A stretch of DNA of 64,000 nt from Sporocytophaga sp. (GTDB lineage: Bacteria; Bacteroidota; Bacteroidia; Cytophagales; Cytophagaceae). The notes under the pieces were generated by a model. The model was not told the DNA's origin and did not search any database. It saw only the letters and a program-made list of their open reading frames with translations. Positions within the stretch are counted from its first letter, which is position 1, and each line of letters starts with the position of its first letter. A program made the translations under genes and the position numbers. Positions 50,851 through 52,148 of this stretch are shown here, one piece after another. Location of the stretch: positions 113,830 through 177,829 of the forward strand of contig NZ_JAGHZZ010000008.1 of assembly GCF_017745095.1 (NCBI RefSeq), in the 5' to 3' direction.

Positions 50851-50872
50851 TCAGAAAGATTATAGTGGTCAA
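50851..50872 (+). other. Site complementary to the tRNA-like RNAs' long arm
   Basis: The plus-strand text TCAGAAAGATTATAGTGGTCAA matches the text of each array unit (for example 51027-51049) except for one missing A. As yceI mRNA it would be the antisense of the apical part of the tRNA-like variable arm, giving 22 bp with one bulge. It may be a remnant of a fourth unit, but its position does not fit the 207-bp period. Confidence 0.6.
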
Positions 50873-50884
50873 ATCCAAAAAGAT

Positions 50885-50978: not shown

Positions 50979-51126
50979 TGGCTGTAGGAGAAGGAGTCGA
51001 ACCTCCAAGAGGCAGTTAGCTATAACTCAGAAAGATTAATAGTGGTCAACCCATTAAGTTACGTTTATCCCGTTATTCCTCACCCCCGAGACAGGAGGGC
51101 ATGTCTGCCAGTTTCATCACCCTACA
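50979..51126 (-). ncRNA. tRNA-like RNA, copy 3 in transcription order
   Basis: A 148-nt gene with tRNA features read on the minus strand: acceptor stem TGTAGGG / TCCTACA (7 bp), discriminator G73, encoded CCA, D-arm with the GG of CTGGCAG, anticodon stem CCCTC/GGGGG with loop CTGTCTC (anticodon GUC, U33, U37, C38), and T-arm GGAGG-TTCGACT-CCTTC. A 76-nt segment replaces the variable loop and can fold on itself (GTAACT with AGTTAT; TTAATGG with CCA-CT-ATTAA). The D-arm resembles tRNA-Leu. It is too large for any ordinary tRNA. Followed by the array terminator. Confidence 0.8.
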
Positions 51127-51157
51127 TTGTGTGATCATTGAATAAACTAATACTATA

Positions 51158-51176
51158 GCCGCTTCGTCTAAGCGGC
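51158..51176 (-). other. Spacer hairpin between array copies 2 and 3
   Basis: The 7-bp perfect stem GCCGCTT / AAGCGGC with loop CGTCT lies 10 nt beyond the CCA of the middle gene. On the minus strand no U-run follows, so it is more likely a processing or partial-termination hairpin than a full terminator. On the plus strand it is followed by CTTTT. Confidence 0.55.
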
Positions 51177-51185
51177 CTTTTAATT

Positions 51186-51333
51186 TGGCTGTAGGAGAAG
51201 GAGTCGAACCTCCAAGAGGCAGTTAGCTATAACTCAGAAAGATTAATAGTGGTCAACCCATTAAGTTACGTTTATCCCGTTATTCCTCGCCCCCGAGACA
51301 GGAGGGCGTGTCTGCCAGTTTCATCACCCTACA
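51186..51333 (-). ncRNA. tRNA-like RNA, copy 2 in transcription order
   Basis: Identical to the leftmost copy except at two positions. Both changes (T to C on the minus strand, at gene positions 26 and 45) turn wobble pairs into Watson-Crick pairs in an extended anticodon-arm helix (C-G-CCCTC with GGGGG-C-G). One of them weakens the outer D-stem pair (A-C). The acceptor, T-arm, G73 and CCA are unchanged. The exact 207-bp distance to both neighbours shows tandem duplication. Confidence 0.8.
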
Positions 51334-51363
51334 TTGTGTGTCTTTGAAAAAACTGATTAATAT

Positions 51364-51384
51364 GGCCGCTTCGTCTAAGTGACC
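51364..51384 (-). other. Degenerate spacer hairpin between array copies 1 and 2
   Basis: GGCCGCTT / AAGTGACC with loop CGTCT: eight positions with one mismatch and one G-T. It is the decayed counterpart of the hairpin at 51158-51176 and has no U-run on the minus strand. Confidence 0.45.
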
Positions 51385-51392
51385 TTTTAGTT

Positions 51393-51540
51393 TGGCTGTA
51401 GGAGAAGGAGTCGAACCTCCAAGAGGCAGTTAGCTGTAACTCAGAAAGATTAATAGTGGTCAACCCATTAAGTTACGTTTATCCCGTTATTCCTCACCCC
51501 CGAGACAGGAGGGCATGTCTGCCAGTTTCATCACCCTACA
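51393..51540 (-). ncRNA. tRNA-like RNA, copy 1 in transcription order
   Basis: First gene of the array, next to the promoter. It differs from the leftmost copy at one position, which converts a G-U into a G-C pair in the long-arm helix GTAACT/AGTTAC. All other tRNA-like elements are as described for that copy. AspRS identity elements known from E. coli (G34, U35, C36, C38, G73) are present, whereas G10 is not. The A73 required by LeuRS is absent. Charging, if any, cannot be predicted with confidence. Confidence 0.8.
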
Positions 51541-51683: not shown

Positions 51684-52148
51684 ATGGATAAAAATTCTGA
51701 GATTGATAATGTGGACCTCAAAATACTTTCCCTCCTTATGGATAATGCAGGGATTGCCTACACCGATATCGCAAAGGAAATCTTTGTTTCCCCTGGTACA
51801 GTCCATGTCAGGATGAAAAAACTGGAGCAACTGGGAATTGTCAAAGGGTCGCATTTATCTATTGATTATGCACGCCTAGGCTACGATGTAACAGCTTTTC
51901 TGGGCATTTACCTGGAAAAGAGCTCCTTTTATGATCAGGCTGTAAAAGAGTTACAGGAAATACCTGAAGTGGTTAATGTCCATTATACAACAGGAAATTA
52001 CAGCATGTTTGTAAAAATAATCTGTAAAGACACTCAGCATTTAAGACAGGTGCTGCATGACAAAATTCAAAAAGTATCAGGAATTCAGCGGACTGAAACA
52101 AGTATTTCTCTGGAAGAATCGATAAACAGAAATATCAAACTATTTTGA
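51684..52148 (+). CDS. Lrp/AsnC-family transcriptional regulator
   Basis: A 154-aa regulator with an N-terminal helix-turn-helix (about 8-55: DLKILSLLMDNAGIAYTDIAKEIFVSPGTVHVRMKKLEQLGIV, landmarks DIAKEIFVSPGTVHVR) and a C-terminal RAM/AsnC ligand domain (about 65-145) with VVNVHYTTGNYSMFVKIICKD. Such proteins form octamers and sense amino acids. It is divergent from the tRNA-like array across 143 bp and precedes the suf operon by 131 bp on the same strand, so either could be a target. Ligand unknown. Confidence 0.93.
   Translation: MDKNSEIDNVDLKILSLLMDNAGIAYTDIAKEIFVSPGTVHVRMKKLEQLGIVKGSHLSIDYARLGYDVTAFLGIYLEKSSFYDQAVKELQEIPEVVNVHYTTGNYSMFVKIICKDTQHLRQVLHDKIQKVSGIQRTETSISLEESINRNIKLF

Follow-up and report, generated by a model that had tools for sequence, protein, structure and literature searches.

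A family of tRNA-like RNAs with a large variable arm and aspartate identity positions in Bacteroidota and their phages

Introduction

The staphylococcal non-proteinogenic tRNA-Gly is charged by the normal synthetase and withdrawn from decoding, a task for which tRNAs need U33. To our knowledge, all tRNA-dependent amino-acid pathways make the amino acid on a tRNA that then decodes. In E. coli, asnC lies divergent from asnA and its product senses asparagine. The B. cereus tRNAOther is tRNA-like, has been described as non-functional in translation and lies beside a genomic island (PMC3399842). Aspartate identity resides in G73, G34, U35, C36 and C38, and bacterial tRNA-Asp also has a conserved G2-C71 and a strictly conserved G1-C72 that assists AspRS (PMC9976931). 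The U1-A72 pair is recognised by GatCAB (PMC4206432; PMC9976931), and the retention of GatCAB in bacteria with both GlnRS and AsnRS has been described as unexplained (PMC4206432).

Here we describe a family of tRNA-like RNAs that is absent from Rfam and occurs in many Bacteroidota and their phages. The family has the same G73, G2:C71, G34 U35 C36 and C38 as bacterial tRNA-Asp (GUC), but differs from it in a type II D arm, a large variable (V) arm, U1:A72, U37 and a U33 that is not kept. Its U1:A72 recalls tRNA-Asn and tRNA-Gln of the indirect GatCAB pathway, and it co-occurs with gatB; unlike those tRNAs it has a C36 that gives an aspartate anticodon, a large V arm and no conserved U33. Among type II tRNAs (Leu, Ser), tRNA-Leu has a similar D arm and the 4-bp V-arm stem is alike, whereas the V region of the family (about 38–120 nt) has an internal-loop motif and extra helices, and the GUC anticodon and the combination of G73 with U1:A72 are further differences. 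Extra RNA between the domains of a tRNA-like acceptor/T end is also found in tmRNA, but in the family the anticodon arm and the D stem are complete, a tag reading frame is lacking and the RNA is shorter. In contrast to tRNAOther, it spans a phylum and its phages, forms tandem arrays and has links to AsnC and GatCAB; from the staphylococcal tRNA-Gly it differs in amino acid and in its giant arm, and its amino-acid acceptor is unidentified.

Results

The array in Sporocytophaga sp.

We analysed a 64,000-nt stretch of the Sporocytophaga sp. genome (the window), in which a first-pass annotation made from the sequence alone had recorded three tRNA-like units of 148 nt spaced 207 bp apart. All three were confirmed as direct repeats, each running from U1 through an encoded CCA, with a repeat of 207 nt (start-to-start spacings of 207 and 207 nt), and were assigned to the minus strand, which the annotation had not given. 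Relative to the first copy their identities are 100, 92 and 87%, and they are the sole three copies in the genome (6.6 Mb, 64 contigs). The features of the locus are as follows.

51684..52148, plus strand: gene for an AsnC-like regulator of the Lrp/AsnC family (154 aa), divergent from and head-to-head with the array
51598-51595, minus strand: putative -33 element TTTG, separated by 20 nt from the -7 element
51574-51567, minus strand: putative Bacteroidota -7 element TACTTTTG (TAnnTTTG), which begins 34 nt before U1 of unit 3
51540-51393, minus strand: tRNA-like unit 3, promoter-proximal and predicted to be transcribed first; covariance model 146.4 bits
51333-51186, minus strand: tRNA-like unit 2, in which C25 and C44, adjoining the anticodon stem, differ; covariance model 140.1 bits
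51158..51176, minus strand: G+C-rich inter-unit hairpin GCCGCTTAGACGAAGCGGC, inside the 207-bp repeat
51126-50979, minus strand: tRNA-like unit 1, predicted to be transcribed last (U1 51126, G73 50982, CCA 50981-50979); covariance model 147.6 bits
50974-50944, minus strand: predicted intrinsic terminator after the last unit, a 14-pair hairpin followed by a T-rich tail
50851..50878, minus strand: decayed V-arm fragment downstream of the array (TCAGAAAGATTA repeat then TAGTGGTCAA on the plus strand)

Each unit has a 7-bp acceptor stem (G.U at 7:66), U8, the D-loop GG, a 5-bp anticodon stem with a 7-nt loop (CUGUCUC), a 76-nt V region, a 5-bp T stem with the loop TTCGACT, G73 and CCA. The acceptor stem, G73, D-loop GG, anticodon arm and T loop noted in the first pass are thus all present; the T arm had been called perfect, which is right for the length of its stem and for its loop but overlooks one G.U pair in the stem. 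In a V-arm helix of unit 3, a U-to-C change is compensating, turning a G.U pair into G-C. A weaker hairpin similar to GCCGCTTAGACGAAGCGGC lies between units 2 and 3, and the GCCGCTTAGACGAAGCGGC hairpin itself probably descends from a terminator copy that has decayed. The fragment at 50851-50878 suggests a remnant of an additional, lost unit.

By motif match, the array has Bacteroidota-type promoter and terminator signals; its transcription in vivo is inferred. The promoter match recurs among relatives, TAnnTTTG being found 15–70 nt upstream of U1 in 74 of 110 homologous intergenic regions against 5.6 in shuffles. An extended form of the -33 element, ATATTTGCAA, is also enriched in the homologous intergenic regions between the AsnC-like gene and the RNA, and the similar word ATTTGCA occurs in 44 of 91 of them against 6.1 expected. 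Such words may represent the -33 element or an AsnC operator.

ARAGORN called no tRNA in the window, and at Rfam gathering thresholds no known family matched the units. The sole Rfam match in the window lies elsewhere, a SAM riboswitch aptamer (RF00162, 3967-4078, minus strand, 74.6 bits). A permissive Rfam scan gave no credible tRNA, tmRNA or other match on the units; over the array region it returned just sub-threshold, unrelated sRNA families, mostly on the flanking terminator-like hairpins, and these were rejected. Identity as an ordinary tRNA was rejected on the ARAGORN and Rfam scans together with the anatomy. We also rejected tmRNA, given the absence of any ARAGORN or Rfam match, the anticodon stem in all members and the absence of a tag-encoding reading frame.

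Conservation and spread of the family

Homologues were found by blastn in 70 of 98 relatives, with one to ten matches per genome. Thirty-six diverse members were aligned and evaluated against a model consisting of the tRNA cloverleaf and the V-arm stems. Pairing held in 98.1% of cells, compared with 89.1% in shuffles and 50–59% in slid controls; 17 pairs had changed on both sides, and the covariation score was 0.359 against 0.170. None of 500 shuffles reached the observed pairing or covariation values, and strong covariation was seen in the acceptor, D, anticodon, V and T stems. Because homologues exist in 70 of the 98 relatives and their pairing covaries far above shuffles, the units are more than a chance resemblance to tRNA.

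A covariance-model search, which had been suggested together with the original proposal of a new tRNA-like family, recovered homologues and split them from ordinary tRNAs by score: complete members scored 80–158 bits and ordinary tRNAs about 60 bits or less. Positives came from several families of the same order, from other orders of the class and from a second class (f66). A pattern scan of named genomes gave at least 120 loci, with carriers that include Chitinophaga, Pedobacter, Dyadobacter, Spirosoma, Cyclobacterium, Flammeovirga, Saprospiraceae, Ignavibacteria and one Candidatus Kapaibacterium MAG. This search, the lack of an Rfam match and the conservation across orders and in phages support that proposal. 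In a literature search that left most subscription papers and preprints outside its scope, we found no description of the RNA.

With its cloverleaf, 7-bp acceptor stem, TTCRA T arm and D-loop GG, the family meets the elongator-tRNA layout. The encoded CCA is a property of all three array units but not of the family; most relatives lack it, ending in GCAA, GCTA or similar, and in these CCA must therefore be added.

The variable arm

The conserved fold has U8 and the D-loop GG; its D stem is 3 bp, its anticodon stem 5 bp and its V stem 4 bp long. Beyond the V stem come a helix of 3 bp and a conserved internal loop, and the distal remainder of the V arm is variable. Among 265 distinct arms, the 5′ side of the internal loop is G..AAA-like in 249 and the 3′ side is CUAA in 243. 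The inner V-arm helices covary, with compensatory changes in 11 of 13 pairs. A hairpin-like element, GGGUUGACCAC, is optional (138 of the 265 arms). In many arms it follows an AU, which gives the start-stop reading AUG GGU UGA; such a mini-frame is probably a coincidence.

The 76-nt arm of the array units, correctly measured in the first pass, is not general. Total length varies from 90 to 195 nt over the family found by the model, and the shortest arm is 38 nt. One relative (genome G030; L124, 6414-6338, minus strand) has lost the V arm altogether: it is 76 nt long, has the anticodon loop CTATCTC and is named tRNA-Asp(atc) by ARAGORN, and it retains U1:A72, G2:C71, U35, C36, C38 and G73. Since the arm can shrink to 38 nt, or be lost, with these determinants kept, constancy lies in the acceptor end and the anticodon loop of the RNA, and variation in the arm. 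A further deviation in length was seen in the final unit of a Phaeodactylibacter array (L195:915-1052), which has about 26 extra nt in the T loop region and an intact acceptor stem.

Identity positions

In 287 distinct complete units, U1:A72, G2:C71, G73, U35, C36 and C38 are invariant, G34 is present in 280 and U37 in 277. U33 is present in 230 and replaced by G, A or C in the other 57 (about 20%). The set had been filtered on a TG start, and two of its three source sets were fetched by a pattern containing GTCTC. In 96 distinct units free of loop selection (set A2), U35, C36, C38 and G73 stand at 100%, G34 at 93% and U33 at 79% (76/96). One true member at 117 bits (L150:191-314) has A1 for U1; it is the sole exception to U1:A72 seen and was excluded from the counts.

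The family thus meets the tRNA-Asp set of G73, G34 U35 C36, C38 and G2:C71, and fails G1-C72, having U1:A72 instead. The Sporocytophaga genome has a separate canonical tRNA-Asp(GUC) with G1-C72. Of the canonical tRNAs retrieved from this genome, just the two classical substrates of GatCAB, tRNA-Asn and tRNA-Gln, have U1-A72. With the AspRS set and U1:A72 both conserved, the tRNA-like RNA combines AspRS and GatCAB determinants. In the canonical tRNA-Asp genes that were recovered, position 33 is U and position 37 is A. As far as sequence alone can tell, the tRNA-like RNA seems unable to decode, since U33 is not kept. The non-translational role inferred in the first pass accordingly gains support from three sides: U33 is missing in about a fifth of units, the same genome has a canonical tRNA-Asp, and U37 is unusual.

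The AsnC-like neighbour

The top NCBIfam model for the protein encoded head-to-head with the array is AsnC, at 174 bits; the cut-off of that model is 227 bits, and the next model scores 76. Among solved structures its closest relative is E. coli AsnC (2cg4), and the YTTG(H/N)YS stretch is conserved. An AsnC-like gene stands head-to-head with the RNA in 37 of 61 loci, and also in loci of the second class and in Ignavibacteria. In named genomes, among the matches listed, it is divergent in 72 of 120 loci, usually 130–220 nt away, and 11 of the loci without such a neighbour, again among the matches listed, lie at contig edges. By analogy with E. coli, the tRNA-like gene would occupy the place of asnA in the divergent asnC layout. 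We rejected a shared neighbour other than AsnC: the genes beyond it vary between families and reflect just lineage-specific synteny, among them suf genes beyond the AsnC-like gene in about 14 loci.

Co-occurrence with gatB

All 44 genomes with the RNA have gatB, compared with 12 of 22 without it. AsnRS is present in all 66 genomes tested and GlnRS is over cut-off in 37. Among genomes with both, gatB is found in 25 of 25 with the RNA and in 2 of 12 without (Fisher p 1.9e-7); because GlnRS is present, GatCAB is not needed for Gln-tRNA in these genomes. The statistics are inflated by shared ancestry, and part of the correlation is kinship. The RNA and gatB are jointly missing in G114 and G208 (family f24) and in G099 and G215 (f23), and in a sample of 296 genomes of the phylum none of the 54 without gatB is RNA-positive. 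Two genomes (G074 and G239) have AsnRS, GlnRS and gatB with the RNA undetected; the other tested members of the family of G074 all carry the RNA.

The Sporocytophaga genome (G000) is without GlnRS, so GatCAB is needed there for Gln-tRNA anyway, and it has asnA and AsnB-family genes. Because of these genes, and because most positives have AsnB-family genes, we rejected the RNA as the only asparagine source in general; among positives, only G046, G242 and G357 lack both asnA and any TIGR01536 match within the limits applied. The first pair of tRNA-Asn is U1-A72 in G000 and G357, and G1-C72 in the Saprospiraceae MAG L221, for which there are no GatCAB data. The idea that GatCAB has no other substrate in GlnRS-positive genomes is weakened by the U1-A72 of tRNA-Asn in G357.

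Copies in phages

The RNA was found on 100 IMG/VR viral contigs, with 88 of the copies complete. Nearby genes include those for terminase large subunit, PhoH, ThyX and DNA polymerase. Many copies lie within tRNA clusters, which are often large, and the clusters on L325, L338 and L353 also hold a canonical tRNA-Asp. As these clusters hold the RNA besides ordinary tRNAs, phages treat it as worth carrying. The phage contigs (L291-L390) include short-armed copies of 93–109 nt, some of which ARAGORN names tRNA-Asp(gtc). Annotated phage and plasmid records gave no match to the RNA.

Discussion

The interpretation that we favour, although we give it slightly less than an even chance, is that the RNA is a dedicated non-translating tRNA, charged with aspartate, amidated to asparagine by GatCAB and controlled by AsnC. 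The RNA would be transcribed, folded as a tRNA with a large structured V arm and processed like a tRNA. AspRS would charge it with aspartate through G73, G2:C71, G34 U35 C36 and C38, and GatCAB would convert the Asp-RNA to Asn-RNA through U1:A72. The charged RNA would be kept out of decoding, as U33 is not retained, and would be a dedicated carrier on which asparagine is formed away from the ribosome, to be released in free form or handed to an acceptor not yet identified. Expression would be controlled by the divergent AsnC-like regulator, predicted by homology to sense asparagine. What we observed are the structure, the identity positions, the loss of U33, the promoter and terminator signals, the linkage to AsnC and the co-occurrence with gatB. 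Transcription in vivo, charging and amidation are inferred, as are the control by AsnC and the final fate of the amino acid.

The weakest links are this fate and whether GatCAB is retained for the RNA or for tRNA-Asn, which in G000 and G357 could itself be served by GatCAB, through its U1-A72, if AspRS were non-discriminating. Charging could also be slow, since U1:A72 departs from the G1-C72 that helps AspRS. The asnA and AsnB-family genes of Sporocytophaga, and its need of GatCAB for Gln-tRNA, count against a carrier of asparagine, as does the neighbour's score of 174 bits, which falls short of the curated AsnC cut-off of 227. No enzyme was found that would release or use the asparagine, and there are no charging, amidation or transcript data. 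A bolder version, in which Bacteroidota and their phages make asparagine on a non-decoding tRNA scaffold by means of AspRS and GatCAB, release it outside translation and switch its production through AsnC as E. coli does with asnA, is speculative and in our judgement rather unlikely.

The first-pass annotation had offered a decoy, a regulator or a lipid or peptide donor as possible roles. None has direct support, and the evidence points instead to aspartate charging, GatCAB amidation and AsnC-like control. In the donor role, the RNA, charged with aspartate and perhaps amidated, would hand its amino acid to a lipid, the cell wall, a secreted peptide or another acceptor outside the ribosome, as with the staphylococcal tRNA-Gly, and the V arm would be the handle of a transferase. 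We consider this unlikely, but the conserved internal loop (249 and 243 of 265 arms) with its covarying helices, found in phages as well, suggests a protein partner, and the RNA appears not to decode. No recurrent transferase gene lies beside the RNA in the loci examined, however, an arm that falls to 38 nt and the identity elements of the armless relative in G030 are hard to reconcile with a handle, and the links to AsnC and GatCAB are not explained by donation alone. Doubtful to a somewhat greater degree is a regulatory RNA whose charging state, or whose binding of AspRS, GatCAB or AsnC, reports the balance of aspartate and asparagine and tunes gene expression. The head-to-head AsnC-like gene in most loci and the copy number, which ranges between one and ten blastn matches per genome, would suit such a sensor, and tRNAOther provides a precedent for a pseudo-tRNA acting outside translation (PMC3399842); yet the strictly kept acceptor-end determinants (U1:A72, G2:C71, G73) are more what one expects of an enzyme substrate than of a binding decoy, the phage copies lie inside tRNA gene clusters, and there is no target site or conserved antisense match in evidence.

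An unusual but working aspartate tRNA, whose large V arm would not prevent decoding, seems improbable. The GUC anticodon, the tRNA fold with its D-loop GG and TTCGA T loop, and the phage tRNA clusters are what such a tRNA would have; against it stand the loss of U33 in 57 of 287 units, U37 in 277 of 287 where the recovered canonical tRNA-Asp genes have A37, and the coexistence with canonical tRNA-Asp both in Sporocytophaga and in the phage clusters of L325, L338 and L353. Amidation through U1:A72 would, moreover, make such a tRNA misread aspartate codons as asparagine. There is scarcely any room left for a tRNA-derived repeat or integration-site remnant that has no function in itself. The tandem 207-bp repeats, the decayed fragment at 50851-50878 and the multi-copy arrays could be taken for the traces of one, but this reading is already contradicted: the stems covary, the determinants are invariant, conservation runs deep, promoter and terminator signals and a conserved AsnC linkage are present, and phages carry full-length copies.

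Returning to the Asp-to-Asn carrier, non-translating tRNAs are already known in the form of tRNAOther, whereas a tRNA dedicated to asparagine synthesis would be a new kind. The tRNA and Rfam tools that we applied overlook the family, which is recurrent in many Bacteroidota and in phage tRNA clusters. A widespread tRNA with synthetase and amidotransferase determinants but no decoding would separate the making of an amino acid on a tRNA from its decoding, and the RNA would supply a GatCAB substrate in bacteria with both GlnRS and AsnRS. If the asparagine route were true, this would be an RNA gene for amino-acid biosynthesis.
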